Assembly: GCA_016281605.1 (NCBI GenBank)
Contig: JAEEJA010000019.1
Coordinates: 34,792-98,791, forward strand
Reading direction: 5' to 3'
DNA: 64,000 nucleotides
Source of the DNA: Lachnospiraceae bacterium
GTDB lineage: Bacteria > Bacillota > Clostridia > Lachnospirales > Lachnospiraceae
In this document: positions 26,567 to 38,297 of the stretch, one piece after another
Layout: each line of letters starts with the position of its first letter
Numbering within the stretch: the stretch's first letter is position 1
The notes under the pieces: generated by a model
What the model was told of the DNA's origin: nothing
The model's database searches: none
The model's input: the letters and a program-made list of their open reading frames with translations, nothing else
Program-made: the position numbers and the translations under genes

Positions 26567-26626
26567 ACAGCGTTGTTGTTTGGCTCAGCACCTGTTACGT
26601 GCTGGGTCAAAAACGCTGTTTTTTTC
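26567..26626 (+). terminator. Rho-independent terminator with nested stems
   Basis: acagcgtt...cagcac-ctgttac-gtgctg...aacgctg followed by TTTTTTT. Confidence 0.8.
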
Positions 26627-26643
26627 ATAACAGGGGATTTGTA

Positions 26644-27723
26644 ATGATATTTGAGGAAATAAAAAAACTTCGATTTTTATTATTGATGATTTTGGTGATT
26701 ACCAGTATGGGCGTACAGGGGGATATATCACAAGCAAAGAGAAAAAAGAATAATATAAAATTAAATAAAACCAGTATAACTTTAAGAGTTGGCAATAAAA
26801 AGACGCTGAAGCTTAAAGGTGCTACAGGAAAGATTTACTGGAACAGTAATAAGAAAAAAATAGCCAAGGTGGGTAAAAGAGGCGTGGTAACCGGTGTAAA
26901 AAAGGGAAGCGCACACGTGACGGCTTTACATAAAGGTAAAAAATATACTTGTCAGGTAACCGTAAAAAAGAAGAAGAAAAAGAAAGAAGAAACTCCGGCT
27001 CAGGTTACTACCGGAACAGCTGTAAGTATTGTAACAGTACCTGCCATAAAGGTTGACCCCAATGCACTTAAGGAAGTTCACACAGGACAGGCTACATGGT
27101 ATGGAACAGATAAGTTAAATGGTTATACCAACGGATGTGCAGGGCTTACAACGCTTATTCAGTCTGAACTTATAGACGATATACCGGGAAAACCTCTTTA
27201 TATTTGTGCCCTCAATGTGCCTGATTTCAGGTCAGGACTTCAGGGAGCATATATAAGAGTAACCGATTCGCAGGGAGAAAGTGTGGATGTCATGGTTGCA
27301 GATCAGCTGGATACGCAAGCTAAGCTTGGAGATGTGGATCTTGACAGAAAAGCATTTCCTGTTATAGAGCCTTTGGCAACCGGAAGGATAGATATAACTT
27401 GGCGTATCATACCTTATCCTACCACCAAACCTATACAATATGTATTTCAGAAGGGATCTAATCAGTGGTGGTCACAGATTCAGGTCAGAAATCACAGATA
27501 CCCCATAGTTTCTGTTGAGTATAAAAAGCAAGGGGAGCCGGAAAGTAATTATAAAGAGCTTACTAAGACATATTATAATTATTATACATTGTCAAATGCC
27601 GGCTTAGGTCCGTTTGATATCAGAGTTACGGATATTCTGGGAGACAAACTCACTGATACGGTAACTCTTAATGTAGATGATCCAACAGCTACCATAAGCG
27701 GAACGAAGAATTTTCCCTACTAA
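26644..27723 (+). CDS. Secreted bacterial expansin (EXLX-like) with N-terminal Lys-rich Ig-like domain
   Basis: TGQATWYGT, VMVADQ...GDVDLDRKAFPVI, GRIDITWRIIPYP, GSNQWWSQIQVRNHRYPIVSVEY, GLGPFDIRVTDILGD match both expansin domains; upstream RKKNNIKLNKTSITLRVGNKKTLKLKGATGKIYWNSNKKKIAKVGKRGVVTGVKKGSAHVTA is Big_2-like. Confidence 0.88.
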   Translation: MIFEEIKKLRFLLLMILVITSMGVQGDISQAKRKKNNIKLNKTSITLRVGNKKTLKLKGATGKIYWNSNKKKIAKVGKRGVVTGVKKGSAHVTALHKGKKYTCQVTVKKKKKKKEETPAQVTTGTAVSIVTVPAIKVDPNALKEVHTGQATWYGTDKLNGYTNGCAGLTTLIQSELIDDIPGKPLYICALNVPDFRSGLQGAYIRVTDSQGESVDVMVADQLDTQAKLGDVDLDRKAFPVIEPLATGRIDITWRIIPYPTTKPIQYVFQKGSNQWWSQIQVRNHRYPIVSVEYKKQGEPESNYKELTKTYYNYYTLSNAGLGPFDIRVTDILGDKLTDTVTLNVDDPTATISGTKNFPY

Positions 27724-27776: not shown

Positions 27777-30700
27777 ATGAGATATTTATTTGAACAATTT
27801 ACAGAAAATGTTAAGGTGCATCACAATTCTCCTTTTATATATGATGAATCTACACCTAAGGGCTTAAGCTATAAGGATGTAGACATTTCTTCAGGTAAGG
27901 TTTATGCTTATTTAAAGGATAAAGGTGTAGGAAAAGAGGATTTTGTTCTCATTAATCTTCCAAGAGGTATACAGCCGATTATAGCTATAATAGGCATCTG
28001 GAAGGCAGGCGCTGCATTTGCCCTTGTAGAGGATAATTATGCTCCTGAGCGCATAGACTTTATAAGACAGGATTGCTCATGCAAGCTTGAGATAAATGCC
28101 GATGTTTGGACTGATATCATGAAGTATACATCTTTAGAGGGATATGAGAAACCGGATTATCATGATGCTGCTTATGCCATATATACATCCGGAACTACAG
28201 GGAATCCAAAGGGGGTTCTACATGAGTATGGAAATATAGATGAATGTCTTGAATCTTTGAATATAAATGGAGATCCCTTCTTAGAAAAGGGAGATAGGGC
28301 AGCGCTGTTAGCTCCTCTTAATTTCGTTGCCTCTATAATGGTTATTATCTATGTTCTGAATTTTTCCGGAGCCAGGATTTATATAGCGTCCTACCAGACT
28401 CTTAAAAATCCTATGCTTCTCATGAAGATGTTTATGGAGAAGCGTATCAGTATAACCTTCCTTACACCTTCTTATGTAAGGATGCTCGATGGCAAGACAG
28501 GTCCATTCTTAAAGAAGATGGTTGTTGGAAGTGAGCCGGCTAATAAGCTCTATATCAAGGGTGTAAAGATATATAATCTCTACGCTATGAGCGAAAGCGG
28601 ATTTGTAGTAGGCGTATTTCCTATAGATAAGGCTTATGACACGTGTCCTATAGGAGTTCCGCAGTTTGACCTTGATTATAAGCTGATAAGGGAGGACGGG
28701 ACAGAAGCGCCTGATGGAGAAACAGGAGAGCTTATATTTAAAAATTCTTATGTAAGAGGATATATAAATCTTCCGGAAGAAACCGCCGAAAGTTTTTGCG
28801 ATGATGGTTATTATCATACTCAGGATCTTGCAAGAAAGGATGAAAACGGAAATCTTATCCTGCTTGGAAGAGCCAATGATATGATAAAGATAAATGGAAA
28901 TCGTATAGAGCCTGCTGAGATTGAGGCAGCTGTAAAAAAGGTACTCAACATACGATGGGCTGCTGCAAAGGGCTTCGAGGAGGACGGAAGATCATTCTTA
29001 TGTGCTTATTATGTAGAGGATGCAAACGTTGACTTAGAAGCAGTAAGAGAAGCACTTTTAAGGCGTCTTCCCTACTATATGCTCCCATCTTTCTTTATGA
29101 AGATAGACAATGTGCCGCTTAAACCAAACGGAAAGCTTGACAGAAAAGCGCTTCCAAAGCCGGATACAAGCACATTTCAAAGTGATTATATAGCTCCTTC
29201 TACGGAGGTAGAAGAAAAGCTTTGCGATGCATTTGCCAATGTTCTATGCATGAGCAAAGTAGGTATAAATGACGATTTTTATGAGATGGGTGGAGATTCT
29301 CTTGGTGCCATAAATCTAATTGCAGTATGTCAGCTGCCCGGATTAAATGCTTCTGAGGTTTTCAGAGGCAGAACGCCTAAAAAAATAGCTGAGATTTATG
29401 AAAAAGCCCATGCTGAGGATGATGGTATATCCCCGGATGTAAAGAACGATGAGGCTATGAAATCTTCCCATCTGCTTACTACAGAGCAGCTTTACATGGT
29501 GGATTATCAGCTTAGAAAGCCCATGTCCACTATGTATAATCTCTTCACTCTTATGAGAGTAGATTTAAATGACTTCGATATGGTGCAGATGGCTGCAGCA
29601 CTTGAAAAGACAATAAAAAATCATCCTGCCTTGCTTACTACTTACTCATTTAATGAGGATGGAGATATTATCCAGACTTATCACCCTGAAACTTTGTATC
29701 CAATACAGGTCGAAAGGCTTACAGAGTGGGAATTTAATAATATTACAAAGGATATTTTGGTTCAGCCCTTTAAGATTGCTGACCAAAAGGTACCTCACAA
29801 GCTTTGCAGATGCAGAGTTTTCCAAACTGAGAAGTATGGCTATATATTTTTTGATGTTCATCACTCTGTATTTGATGGTACGTCTTTTAAGGTATTTATG
29901 GGAAATGTCGGTAAAGCTTATTTTGGTATGGAGCTTGATAAAGATTATTATTATCTCATGCTTAAGAGGCGTGAGGATATCATACATACGAGCTTTTACA
30001 ATGAAAGCCGTAGGTACTTCGAGGAAAAGTACGAAGGAGTGAAGTGGGAAACTTATCCTCATGTAGACGATAATAAAAATGAATCGGGAGAACTGGGTGA
30101 GATACTAAGTGATATGGATATTTCTCAAGGAGACTTAAATACAATTGAGAGAGTAAATCGTATATCACGTAATGAATTTTTTATAGCAGCTGCGATTCTT
30201 AGTATTGCTATATATAATAAAAGTTACAATGTCATGATTTCATGGATATATAACGGTCGCGAAGATATGGAGCTTATGAGCACTGTTGGACTTTTGTTCA
30301 GAGAGTTGCCTGTGGCAGTTAACTTAAATAAGTCAATGACATTGAGAGATCTTTTTAAAGAGGTTCATCTTCAGGTTCAGAAGGGTATAGAGCACAGTTG
30401 TTATCCCTATGTAGATAAGACTAATTCAGGAACTCTCAATGATGCGGCTTATCTGCTGTATCAGCAGGACTTAAGAGATAATCAGGGAATGGAAGGCATG
30501 GAGATGGAGACGGTGGATATTAGGCAGAATCAGGCTGCTACACAGACTATGCTTGATATAGAAATACTTGATGGATCAGACGGATTAGAGGTTATGATTG
30601 ACTATGCTGCAGGAATCTATAAGGATGAATCCATGGAGAAGTTCAGATTGCTCTTTATGAGAACAGTTGATGCCATGATTTCCCATGATTCACAGGATGA

Positions 30701-30794
30701 CATAAGTCTTGCTGAGATAAAGAAAGAAATAGATAACAAGAAGCCACTTATAACAGTTGCTTTAAGTAAAGTGAAATTTAAGTTCTTTAATTAG
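27777..30794 (+). CDS. NRPS-like protein, domain order adenylation - carrier (PCP) - condensation
   Basis: A: YTSGTTGNPKGV, LGRANDMIKINGNRIEPAEIE, PNGKLDRKAL; PCP: DDFYEMGGDSLGAI; C: HHSVFDGTS. Confidence 0.92.
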   Translation: MRYLFEQFTENVKVHHNSPFIYDESTPKGLSYKDVDISSGKVYAYLKDKGVGKEDFVLINLPRGIQPIIAIIGIWKAGAAFALVEDNYAPERIDFIRQDCSCKLEINADVWTDIMKYTSLEGYEKPDYHDAAYAIYTSGTTGNPKGVLHEYGNIDECLESLNINGDPFLEKGDRAALLAPLNFVASIMVIIYVLNFSGARIYIASYQTLKNPMLLMKMFMEKRISITFLTPSYVRMLDGKTGPFLKKMVVGSEPANKLYIKGVKIYNLYAMSESGFVVGVFPIDKAYDTCPIGVPQFDLDYKLIREDGTEAPDGETGELIFKNSYVRGYINLPEETAESFCDDGYYHTQDLARKDENGNLILLGRANDMIKINGNRIEPAEIEAAVKKVLNIRWAAAKGFEEDGRSFLCAYYVEDANVDLEAVREALLRRLPYYMLPSFFMKIDNVPLKPNGKLDRKALPKPDTSTFQSDYIAPSTEVEEKLCDAFANVLCMSKVGINDDFYEMGGDSLGAINLIAVCQLPGLNASEVFRGRTPKKIAEIYEKAHAEDDGISPDVKNDEAMKSSHLLTTEQLYMVDYQLRKPMSTMYNLFTLMRVDLNDFDMVQMAAALEKTIKNHPALLTTYSFNEDGDIIQTYHPETLYPIQVERLTEWEFNNITKDILVQPFKIADQKVPHKLCRCRVFQTEKYGYIFFDVHHSVFDGTSFKVFMGNVGKAYFGMELDKDYYYLMLKRREDIIHTSFYNESRRYFEEKYEGVKWETYPHVDDNKNESGELGEILSDMDISQGDLNTIERVNRISRNEFFIAAAILSIAIYNKSYNVMISWIYNGREDMELMSTVGLLFRELPVAVNLNKSMTLRDLFKEVHLQVQKGIEHSCYPYVDKTNSGTLNDAAYLLYQQDLRDNQGMEGMEMETVDIRQNQAATQTMLDIEILDGSDGLEVMIDYAAGIYKDESMEKFRLLFMRTVDAMISHDSQDDISLAEIKKEIDNKKPLITVALSKVKFKFFN

Positions 30795-30823
30795 GTTAAA
30801 TGTATTGTATTTTGGGAGGTAGC

Positions 30824-32461
30824 ATGAAAAAGGAGATAATTACAGGACCTTATGATGAGACACTTGGCGCAAAGTGTATAAACGGTACATATATCGGAAA
30901 AAAGAAGGGAAATGTGCTGGAGTTTAAGGGTATTCCCTATGCACTTCCGCCTGTAGGAGCTCTTCGTTGGAAAGAGCCGATAATAGCAGAGGAAGATGAA
31001 AATGTTTATGAGGCTTATAATTACGGTCCTACAGCTATACAAACAGTAATAGATACTGAAAAAGCATCCGCAAGCAATCAATCCGAGGATTGCTTATATC
31101 TTAATGTCTGGACAGGAGCGGACAGAGAAGTAAAAGGAAAGCCTGTTATGGTATTTATCCATGGCGGAGCCTATGGTTGGGGAGGAACTAATGACCCCCT
31201 CTATGACGGATATAATTTTGTAGAAGAAAACAATAATATAGTTTTGGTAACAATTGCATATCGTATAGGAATCTTAGGATTTTTGGATCTTTCATATCTT
31301 CCTGACAGTGAAGGCTATGAGAGAAGTCAGAACTTAGGATTGTTAGATCAGATATGCGCCCTTAGATATATAAAAAGAAATATCAAAAGCTTTGGGGGAG
31401 ATCCTAACAATATAACGATTTTCGGAGAGTCTGCAGGAGGTGGAAGTGTTTCGCTTCTCCCTCTTATACCTGAGGCAAAGGGGCTTTTCCGGAGAGTGAT
31501 TGCTGAGAGTGGCTCTGTAGCACTTACCTATAGCAAAAGGGAATGCAAGCATCTTACCAGAGAGTTTTTAAAGGCTGCACATGCATCGACCGTAGCCGAG
31601 CTTGTGGCTTTAACCGAGGATCAGATTAAAGAGTTAAATGAAGACTTAAACGATGATATTAATTATCCTCAGAGAGACGGTATACTTCTACCTGAAGACC
31701 TTTATGAAGCCTATGAAAAAGGTGTGGGAGCTGATGTCGACATGCTTATCGGAACCAATGCTGATGAGATGAGATACTGGATAAAGGATATCGGAAATGT
31801 CCATAAGTACAGTGCATTTGGCAGATTTTTATTTGAAAACAACATGCTTAGCCTAAGTAGAGATGACAGGAAGAGAGTTAAAGCATTTATGCTTTTACAG
31901 GACAACGAAACTGCTTTGAGACACATATGGGATATAACAGAGTTTTATAATGAGATAATCTTTCGTCTTCCTGCTATAAGACAGGCTACTGCCCATCACT
32001 TAAATGGCGGTAATACCTACATGTATTATTGGTCATACCCTTCAGCCATACCTCACCTAAAGGCTTGCCATGCAGTAGAGCTTGCTTATGTATTTAATAA
32101 TCCGGAAGTTAATACATATATTGGCGAGGATTACAATGAAGAGCTTGGTAAAACAGTGAGAAAGATGTGGGTGAATTTTGCTACTACAGGTAATCCTTCT
32201 ACTGATGAGTATGAGTGGAAGAAGTATACAAGAGCCCATAGAGAAACCATGATACTGGGTAATGATATAAGAATAGAAAATGATTGGCTCGGAGTATACA
32301 GAAAATTATTATTTCCGTTACTCGATCATCATTTTAACGGTTATAGAAATGATCTTACACCTAAGGTGCCTTTAGTTTACAAGACTGTAGGTATAACAGT
32401 GCTTGTAACCCTGGCTTTGGGAACCGGTATCTATGCCCTCGTGAATAGGAAAAAAACTTGA
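30824..32461 (+). CDS. Type-B carboxylesterase with C-terminal transmembrane anchor
   Basis: FGESAGGGSVSLL nucleophile elbow, IHGGAYGWGG oxyanion loop; C-terminus VGITVLVTLALGTGIYALVNRKKT; gggagg RBS before ATG 30824. Confidence 0.92.
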   Translation: MKKEIITGPYDETLGAKCINGTYIGKKKGNVLEFKGIPYALPPVGALRWKEPIIAEEDENVYEAYNYGPTAIQTVIDTEKASASNQSEDCLYLNVWTGADREVKGKPVMVFIHGGAYGWGGTNDPLYDGYNFVEENNNIVLVTIAYRIGILGFLDLSYLPDSEGYERSQNLGLLDQICALRYIKRNIKSFGGDPNNITIFGESAGGGSVSLLPLIPEAKGLFRRVIAESGSVALTYSKRECKHLTREFLKAAHASTVAELVALTEDQIKELNEDLNDDINYPQRDGILLPEDLYEAYEKGVGADVDMLIGTNADEMRYWIKDIGNVHKYSAFGRFLFENNMLSLSRDDRKRVKAFMLLQDNETALRHIWDITEFYNEIIFRLPAIRQATAHHLNGGNTYMYYWSYPSAIPHLKACHAVELAYVFNNPEVNTYIGEDYNEELGKTVRKMWVNFATTGNPSTDEYEWKKYTRAHRETMILGNDIRIENDWLGVYRKLLFPLLDHHFNGYRNDLTPKVPLVYKTVGITVLVTLALGTGIYALVNRKKT

Positions 32462-35111: not shown

Positions 35112-38100
35112 ATGAAAAGGATAAGCAGAAGAGTATTATCGTTTTCTATGGCATTTATTATGTTTGTAACACTTTTACCTTTATCAGTTAAAAGTGACAT
35201 GAAAAATGCAGAGGCAAAGGATCAGGTTTCTTCTCAAAAGGAGCATACCTTTAATGAAGAAGAGCAAAATACCATGACCTACGGACTTACAAAGCACTTT
35301 ACAAACGCAAAGAAATTCATAGATTCGGATTTTTATTATAACGATTTATGGTTTGACAGTGATCCGAGCGATATGAGTGAAAAGCTGGCTCTTGCTTCCA
35401 TACAGTTTTCTTCTGCAGCTTCTTCAAAGGAGACAGCCATAAACCATTTAAATAATTTAGGTTTTAACAATACTAACGGAGTAAACTTTGATGAGAATGA
35501 TATATTAAAACCTGCTTATTGCTACGGAATTAAAAAGCTTTCTGACGAAACAACCCTTATTGCCATTAATTTCCAAGGAGCAAATTATCCTTCATCCATG
35601 TGGGAATCCAATCTATCCATAAATAAGGATGAAGAGGTTTTAGATTACCATTATGGTTATTACTCAAGTGCAAATGCAGTACTAAGTGATATAGTAAATC
35701 TGGCAGGATATGGTGATAAAAAGGTTAAATATTGGATAACCGGTTTAAGCCGCGGAGGAGCCATAACAAATATAATTTCTACATTGATTATGGATAAAAA
35801 AAGTGAATTTTCTGCATTATCAGATAAAGAAGTGAGTGTATACGCCTATACCTTCGAGGCACCCGGAACATATGATGCTTCCTACTTGGAAGATAAAAAT
35901 TATAACTACATACATAATTTTAAAACAACGGATGATTTCTTATGTAAATTTCCATTCTGGAATATGAGCTCAGCCGGAAATACTTATTATCTTGATAAGA
36001 TGGCAGACTCTAAAGAGGCTTTAAAGTATTTTTCTAAGTACAGTCCCGGTACTTCCAAATATGAAGCTCAGGAAATATTTTATAATGAATCGGCACTAGA
36101 GATTAATTCCGGATTAACAGCGAAAATCTTAAAGCTTATTCCTGAAAGAAAGGATTACTCTAGGGTTTTGAAGGATACTATCTATCAATTAAGTGAGCAG
36201 GGAATACCTCAGATAATAGATGAGGTAACATATTCTTATCAAAAATCACTTGTAAAGCTGTGGCCTGCTATATTAATGATTGCGAATGGAGGAGGGACAA
36301 TATCTTTCATGGAATTACTTAGTGACGAAGTAGTGTTAAAGTACTTTACCATGCTTCTTATGGCAGGTGTAAGCGATAAGTATAAGGATATGAAAGAGGA
36401 CCTTACACCTGAGGAAATTGCGAAGATTAAGGTTACGTCCGATAGTCTGTATTATCAGAGTGCTTTGGGATTAAAGGATATATTTAACGAAAAGTTCGGA
36501 ACTGATTTTGACACCTATAATCTTTATGGCGCTTTAAGAATACTGGCAAATCTTTTGATAAAGGAAAAAAATGTAATCTCTGCATATGAAGACGCTCAAA
36601 ATCAGGATATAGAAAATATATCTTACTTTGATTTTATTATTAATAATACTGAAATTGCAAAGCTTTCAAGTATTAAAACCATAATAACTTCGCATTTTTT
36701 TGAAGTAATCCTGGCAAGATTATACTCTATTGCACTTCCTCCATATGAGGATGAAATAGCATTGATAACTAACGATGATTATCTTCATTCATCCAAAGAG
36801 GAGGTAATACAGGAATTTAAGGATAAAGCAAAGGCACTTGAAAAAAAGTACTTAAGTGTTGAAAATGTTCAGATAGAAGGAGACTATGAGGAAGGCAAGG
36901 TATGCTACTTAAGCGCAGATTTTTTAACTACAGGTCATATTTTCTCAGATGATCACGTAATCACTTTAAACGGACAGATGCCTAATAATATGATTTTAAG
37001 CTATGAGCAGAAAGGAACGCTCGCTACATGTAAGTGGAAGATAGAGGTGGGAACACCTGCAACTTATAAGGTGACATTTGATGTTAATGGTATGGGAGAA
37101 AATCCGGAGAGCATGGAACTTAAAGATGGAGAGAATCTAGGCTATGTTAAGTTGCCTGAACTTCCGGATGTAGAGGTAGACGGTTTTACCTATAAAGCTT
37201 TCAACTGGGTGGACGAAGATGGAAATTCACTGAGTAATTATATAATAAACAATGATATAACTCTTACCATGAAGTGGAGAAAGATCATAGGAAAAGTCTT
37301 ATTTAATCTTGATATTCCTGAGTATAACACCAAGGTGGAGGATTATAGTAATCTCGTTAAAGTAAGTGAAGATGCTGATTATGAAGTCTTCAGTGTTACA
37401 GTTGCAAATGAAGAGGGAACAGATATTACTTATGATGATTATTATGAAATGAAGGAAGGCACCTACAAAGCAAGTATTATAATATCATTAAACGAAGAAT
37501 ATAACATATTTGCCGGTAAGGATGGCGTCTTTAATGGTGAAGTAATATGTAATAATGGAGATATTACTCCTTATTCTATAAGCTTAAATAATGATGCAGA
37601 CATACTATATGTTAGCTTGACATTTGATGTCTTAAAGCCTTCAAATCCTTCGAATCCTTCGAATCCTACTGATAAGCCAACTAGTATACCTGCCGTAACC
37701 AGCGCTCCTGCAGTTAGCAGTGAGCCGATAATTACGACTACAACAGAGCCTGCCGTAACAGTTATACCCGACGCTACGTCGTCGGCTTCTCCGGTACAGA
37801 CACCTCCTTCAAAGCAGACTTCTGTGTCTATACTACCTACTACACCCGTTTACTTAAATCCGGGTGATACATTTACTGATGCTTCATCAAATCTTATTTA
37901 TAAGGTTTTAATAGCAAATAAGGAAACGAATAAAGGGAAGGTGGCCTGCATAGGCTCAGCTGTTACAACAGCTTCAAGTATTTCAATTCCAAATTCAGTT
38001 TTTTCATCTCTAGTAACCTACAAGGTAACTCAGGTGGGTGAAAAGGCATTCAATGGATATAAAGAGTTAAAGGAGCTTATACTTGGCAAAAATATAGTAA

Positions 38101-38297
38101 AGATTAAAGGAGCAGCATTTAAGGGATGCAAGAATTTAAAGAAGATTCGTATAAAAACCAAGAAGCTTAAAAAGAAAGATCTTGCAAAGAGCGCATTTAA
38201 GAAAATTGCTGAAAATGCAACCATAAAAGTGCCAAAGAGTAAGTATAAGTATTATAAAAAAATATTTAAATCAATCGGAGTTAAGATAAAAAAATAA
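35112..38297 (+). CDS. Secreted lipase-like alpha/beta hydrolase with repeat domains, PSN/PT linker and LRR_5/Lys-rich C-terminus
   Basis: Signal peptide; nucleophile elbow WITGLSRGGAITNII; linker PSNPSNPSNPTDKPTS; C-terminal KAFNGYKELKELILGKNIVKIKGAAFKGCKNLKKI...VPKSKYKYYKKIFKSIGVKIKK. Confidence 0.85.
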   Translation: MKRISRRVLSFSMAFIMFVTLLPLSVKSDMKNAEAKDQVSSQKEHTFNEEEQNTMTYGLTKHFTNAKKFIDSDFYYNDLWFDSDPSDMSEKLALASIQFSSAASSKETAINHLNNLGFNNTNGVNFDENDILKPAYCYGIKKLSDETTLIAINFQGANYPSSMWESNLSINKDEEVLDYHYGYYSSANAVLSDIVNLAGYGDKKVKYWITGLSRGGAITNIISTLIMDKKSEFSALSDKEVSVYAYTFEAPGTYDASYLEDKNYNYIHNFKTTDDFLCKFPFWNMSSAGNTYYLDKMADSKEALKYFSKYSPGTSKYEAQEIFYNESALEINSGLTAKILKLIPERKDYSRVLKDTIYQLSEQGIPQIIDEVTYSYQKSLVKLWPAILMIANGGGTISFMELLSDEVVLKYFTMLLMAGVSDKYKDMKEDLTPEEIAKIKVTSDSLYYQSALGLKDIFNEKFGTDFDTYNLYGALRILANLLIKEKNVISAYEDAQNQDIENISYFDFIINNTEIAKLSSIKTIITSHFFEVILARLYSIALPPYEDEIALITNDDYLHSSKEEVIQEFKDKAKALEKKYLSVENVQIEGDYEEGKVCYLSADFLTTGHIFSDDHVITLNGQMPNNMILSYEQKGTLATCKWKIEVGTPATYKVTFDVNGMGENPESMELKDGENLGYVKLPELPDVEVDGFTYKAFNWVDEDGNSLSNYIINNDITLTMKWRKIIGKVLFNLDIPEYNTKVEDYSNLVKVSEDADYEVFSVTVANEEGTDITYDDYYEMKEGTYKASIIISLNEEYNIFAGKDGVFNGEVICNNGDITPYSISLNNDADILYVSLTFDVLKPSNPSNPSNPTDKPTSIPAVTSAPAVSSEPIITTTTEPAVTVIPDATSSASPVQTPPSKQTSVSILPTTPVYLNPGDTFTDASSNLIYKVLIANKETNKGKVACIGSAVTTASSISIPNSVFSSLVTYKVTQVGEKAFNGYKELKELILGKNIVKIKGAAFKGCKNLKKIRIKTKKLKKKDLAKSAFKKIAENATIKVPKSKYKYYKKIFKSIGVKIKK

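Follow-up and report, generated by a model that had tools for sequence, protein, structure and literature searches.

Gut Clostridia make ligands of human GPCRs with split NRPS-like enzymes, and OaaC of a gut fatty-acid-amide pathway joins acyl-ACP to free amines (PMC13142362). The adenylation (A), ACP and condensation (C) functions of the Oaa pathway reside in free-standing proteins. Here we analyse a 64,000-nt stretch of DNA from a gut-type Lachnospiraceae bacterium (the window, to which all plain coordinates refer) in which A, carrier (T) and C domains are instead fused in one protein, encoded just before a type-B carboxylesterase (CE). The two genes form a conserved and apparently undescribed unit that falls within a known type of chemistry; their pairing is well supported, and the chemistry proposed for them below is read from sequence.

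The first gene (27777-30794, + strand) encodes a 1005-residue NRPS-like protein with Pfam matches to AMP-binding, PP-binding and Condensation, hereafter A-T-C. The adenylation core (AMP-binding, residues 8-326; 27798-28754, + strand) is placed by Pfam and by alignment with LgrA, which together extend the C-terminal subdomain of the A domain to about residue 462. A carrier domain follows (PP-binding, residues 480-518; 29214-29330, + strand; E 5e-5, over the cut-off), carrying the Ppant serine Ser508 in a GGDSL motif (29298-29300). The terminal C domain, delimited by Pfam and motif comparison (residues 578-974; 29508-30698, + strand), contains the motif HHSVFDG at residues 695-701 (29859-29879). 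Both the serine and the HHSVFDG motif are conserved among relatives, and the catalytic motifs of all three domains are intact in a single chain, in which Pfam detects no thioesterase (TE) or reductase (R) domain. Sequence and hydropathy further delineate a basic, mostly amphipathic C-terminal tail (30729-30791, + strand), a possible membrane contact, less pronounced here than in relatives. AlphaFold2 models are of low confidence, with a mean pLDDT of 42 for A-T-C with five sequences and 33 for CE alone.

The CE gene (30800-32461, + strand; 553 residues as called) begins 5 nt after the A-T-C gene. A second ATG at 30824 follows a GGGAGG Shine-Dalgarno sequence and is probably the true start, which would yield a protein of 545 residues. 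The COesterase domain matches residues 27-490 (Pfam, E 4e-103), and the Ser-Glu-His triad of the type-B carboxylesterase family is present as Ser211 (31430), Glu323 (31766) and His424 (32069), all conserved in relatives. The nearest solved structure is p-nitrobenzyl esterase (PDB 1qe3), which shares the family and the triad positions; the window CE differs from such type-B esterases in its linkage to an adenylating enzyme and in a C-terminal transmembrane (TM) segment, identified by hydropathy (residues 530-548; 32387-32443, + strand; Kyte-Doolittle 2.11) and followed by NRKKT. This TM feature recurs in the CEs of L057, L053 and, by eye, L078, and is weaker in that of L056. Since hydropathy reveals no N-terminal hydrophobic segment or signal peptide, CE most likely faces the cytosol as a tail-anchored protein. 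The first-pass annotation had described a single A-T-C protein lacking a thioesterase or reductase, followed by a type-B carboxylesterase with a C-terminal TM anchor and no signal peptide; open reading frames, Pfam matches, intact motifs, triad and hydropathy agree with both descriptions.

In A domains, Asp235 holds the α-amino group of the substrate. Val184 (28326-28328, + strand) occupies this place in the window protein, as judged by alignment with PheA and checked on the LgrA alignment, where the same column is found (NFVAS against SFDGS). Valine or isoleucine stands here in 18 of the 20 stand-alone A-T-C proteins in which the position is present, the exceptions being a threonine in L042 and an aspartate in the remote L044. 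Other A domains of the family keep Asp235 in 19 of 24 cases; the five without it comprise four N-terminal loading modules (L009, L010, L011 and L019) and one lone A domain (L024), so that among the multimodular NRPSs sampled the residue is missing only in loading modules. Three of these modules (L009, L010 and L011) share with the window protein both the N-terminal A-T-C order and a valine at this place, but they continue into further modules and are only 28-30% identical to it. The remaining pocket residues are mostly hydrophobic. Together with the loss of Asp235, this suggests that the A domain probably activates a hydrophobic acid without an α-amino group, the exact acid not being readable from sequence, and the best reading of A-T-C would be an acyl-activating "loading module plus C". 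A D-alanyl carrier ligase was considered and rejected: the DltA model TIGR01734 scores 151 bits against a cut-off of 560, and no DltB-like partner lies nearby.

Because A-T-C has no downstream module, the acceptor of its acyl group must come from outside. Transfer from the carrier to a free acceptor, as proposed in the first-pass annotation, is supported by the architecture and by the missing Asp235. The terminal C domains of stand-alone A-T-C proteins form their own group in the tree, with moderate support, apart from C domains of multimodular NRPSs. The window C domain also lies outside the OaaC clade, so a free amine as the acceptor is suggested by analogy. A-T-C does not belong to the Oaa clade itself: instead of the (D/H)HxxxDS/A motif it carries HHSVFDG, its place in the tree is separate, and its domains are fused rather than free-standing.

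The window genome encodes an Oaa-like system of its own. On another contig (C54; L051:5442-8768) lie a split C domain (DHRLVDS), an 82-residue carrier and an AMP ligase, likely a fatty-acid-amide cluster; its C domain matches PDB 12kh, which we infer to be OaaC, at E 2e-169, and the window C domain at only E 0.026 (BLASTP). A second related cluster (C89; L043:7819-12332) comprises a MATE-HATPase fusion, a C-domain-like protein (YHGLADG, no Pfam match) and a lone A domain with isoleucine in the Asp235 place; no carrier was found in it. In this genome, about 90% complete, we saw no second amino-acid-loading NRPS module, and the only other C domain is the Oaa-like one. A search for an acceptor carrier returned only carriers encoded in the fatty-acid operon, in the Oaa-like cluster and in one unrelated cluster.

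Within the window, the genes flanking the pair look unrelated to it: transketolase halves and an expansin-like protein lie upstream, and glycogen phosphorylase downstream. A profile search of the neighbourhood found no PPTase or further biosynthetic gene adjoining the pair, as the first-pass annotation had noted; an AusB/Sfp-type PPTase is present on another contig. Since the flanks differ in the relatives examined, a role for the neighbouring sugar-metabolism genes was rejected. Promoter and terminator scans at the locus gave matches at or below chance. The gene directly 5' of A-T-C (26599-27723) combines a Big_2 domain with an expansin EXLX1-type region and is unlinked in relatives. Farther downstream, a 1061-residue protein (35112-38297) joins a class 3 lipase domain to BspA-type leucine-rich repeats.

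Relatives of A-T-C at 54-67% identity to the window protein form a clade with support of 96/99. Two further genera include three genomes (G237, L056; G286, L057; G814, L078) in which A-T-C and CE form a same-strand operon with a gap within 25 nt or a one-base overlap, so that, counting the window, the same tight order is found in four genomes of three genera. The CEs of these loci have no signal peptide and a hydrophobic C-terminus, although that of L056 falls below the TM threshold used and that of L078 was judged by eye. The flanking genes of the pair differ in every genome, and this holds even for G286 and G814, which belong to one genus. Of the family's 396 genomes, 6 hold a CE relative of such strength, and in three of the six it adjoins A-T-C; with the window genome left out and adjacency not counted, co-occurrence has a hypergeometric p of 1.3e-3. 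In the window genus, both genes are present in the same two of four genomes. The pairing proposed in the first-pass annotation is thus well supported as functional rather than due to chance. Neighbourhood conservation, which it had put forward as a check, holds in these three further genomes and fails in most A-T-C relatives, which have no adjacent CE.

Across the A-T-C clade, CE alternates with a MATE exporter, usually accompanied by SpoIIE-HATPase and STAS genes. The order SpoIIE-phosphatase/HATPase protein, A-T-C, MATE is seen in L033, L034, L035 (where the first protein is split) and L055; a STAS gene follows MATE in all of these except L033, whose contig ends soon after. L036, cut off on its upstream side, has MATE only, and its A-T-C is 73-76% identical to those of the CE-linked L056, L057 and L078, which indicates that CE and MATE swap at short distance. 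Two clade members (L037 and L050) have neither. No close CE was found in the MATE-bearing relatives G355, G193, G137 and G820-G822, and remoter A-T-C proteins also lie near MATE, SpoIIE or, judged by a look at the sequence, a sodium-solute symporter. A stand-alone pair is therefore too narrow a description: the CE operon is real in four genomes, but most relatives have MATE, with or without SpoIIE-HATPase/STAS, in its place. These other conserved neighbours count in part against the pairing, yet they are themselves telling.

Several related arrangements were seen alongside. In L055 (4864-12226) and L034 (5952-12673), a sensor-type SpoIIE phosphatase fused to a HATPase lies beside A-T-C, MATE and STAS; this partner-switch module appears dedicated to a small-molecule locus and not to a sigma factor. 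In G255 (L072:325-8255) and G081 (L073:6582-14428), a signal-anchored CE lies beside an AMP-dependent ligase, with an HGSNAT-like membrane acyltransferase and SpoIIE-HATPase nearby and, in G081, also STAS; this cassette looks undescribed. Taken with the context of A-T-C, it links both CE and A-T-C to the activation of acids and, in some of the genomes, to a shared regulatory module. Elsewhere (L039 and L063 in G080; L085 in G823), several soluble CE genes are interleaved with amidohydrolase-like genes, an array that in G080 adjoins an A-T-C gene.

To the elements observed here, namely the domains, their motifs, the loss of Asp235, the conserved operon and the CE/MATE alternation, our model adds a substrate class, a free acceptor, a membrane site and a role for CE. 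The first-pass annotation had suggested that the pair could make, and then hydrolyse or release, a small ester or amide at the membrane, which stands as a prediction in our model too. We propose, with roughly even confidence, that A-T-C is a self-contained acyl-conjugating enzyme, which couples a hydrophobic acid other than an amino acid with a free amine or alcohol, and that the tail-anchored CE works at the membrane on that acyl group too. The A domain would adenylate a hydrophobic carboxylic acid lacking an α-amino group and load it onto its own carrier, which the Sfp/AusB-type PPTase encoded on another contig would prime. From there, the C domain would acylate a diffusible amine or alcohol, so that a small amide or ester is formed. 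CE, with its catalytic domain in the cytosol, would most likely hydrolyse this conjugate and so limit its level, and in relatives the MATE exporter would take its place. We favour conjugate hydrolysis on the ground that CE and the exporter substitute for one another, each being a way to lower internal product; acid supply and thioester editing are possible alternative roles for CE.

That the two genes are neighbours without a shared function is highly improbable. A-T-C and CE do lie apart in G202, the CEs from the pairs fall into no single resolved clade, and CE is absent beside most A-T-C relatives, yet a rare type of CE closely follows A-T-C in four genomes, which represent three genera and differ in their flanks. 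If the genes do act together, CE could instead supply the substrate, freeing an acid from an ester or lipid for A-T-C to re-activate and conjugate, both enzymes working forward in one pathway. The tight operon fits this arrangement, as do the CE relatives of G255 and G081 that adjoin an AMP-dependent ligase and a membrane acyltransferase as if feeding acid; we nevertheless consider it unlikely, given that MATE-bearing relatives need no close CE to obtain their acid and that a CE without a signal peptide would reach only intracellular esters.

In a loading module, the C domain normally delivers the acyl group to the module that follows, and the resemblance of the A domain to such modules raises a different prospect: A-T-C might be one of two halves of a divided assembly line, handing its acyl group by way of the C domain to an aminoacyl carrier on another protein, with CE releasing the product in the manner of a thioesterase. 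With no second NRPS module found in the roughly 90% complete window genome, and stand-alone C domains grouping apart from multimodular ones, this is improbable. A DltA-like role, in which the enzyme would modify a membrane lipid or an envelope polymer and the membrane CE would strip the modification, is very improbable. DltA is among the models that score on the A domain, the basic amphipathic tail of A-T-C and the anchored CE would suit such a role, and the MATE superfamily includes lipid flippases; against this, DltA models score far below their cut-offs, the linked genes include neither a DltB-like gene nor any other for the envelope, and Asp235, which would hold the amino group, is lost. 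Extending our preferred reading of acyl conjugation followed by turnover or export, we suggest more tentatively, and with considerable doubt, that the A-T-C clade is a fused acyl-conjugase family of gut and rumen Lachnospiraceae. The family would make undescribed conjugates, signals or membrane-active lipids, and exchangeable partner genes would decide what becomes of them. A tail-anchored esterase in the cytosol would destroy them; alternatively, a MATE exporter controlled by a SpoIIE-phosphatase/HATPase/STAS partner switch would release them in response to an external signal.

The first-pass annotation had not recognised the pair as a described pathway. We likewise found neither the pair, nor the fused form with CE or MATE, nor the MATE/SpoIIE/STAS cassette in the literature searched, weak evidence given a search largely confined to openly accessible papers; the kind of chemistry, however, is known (PMC13142362). 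If our reading is correct, a second family of conjugases, fused and equipped with a hydrolase or exporter, would broaden the set of acyl metabolites made by microbes of gut and rumen, and its loci, of only one or two genes, are compact enough for direct expression and testing. The vibriobactin enzymes VibE, VibB and VibH offer a parallel to A-T-C, in that separate A and T proteins work with a C domain whose acceptor is a free polyamine; they differ in their aryl acid, split proteins and siderophore cluster, none of which is seen for A-T-C. The Oaa pathway (OaaA/OaaACP/OaaC, Coprococcus eutactus; PMC13142362), found like A-T-C in Lachnospiraceae-type bacteria, has in common with it a carrier, a C domain that needs an outside acceptor and, as predicted for A-T-C, adenylation of a non-amino acid. 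The A domain, however, is NRPS-like in A-T-C and FadD-like in Oaa, the C motif is HHxxxDG rather than (D/H)HxxxDS, and a linked CE or MATE sets A-T-C apart. The A-T-C/CE unit may be regarded as an uncharacterised cousin of the gut fatty-acid-amide pathways.
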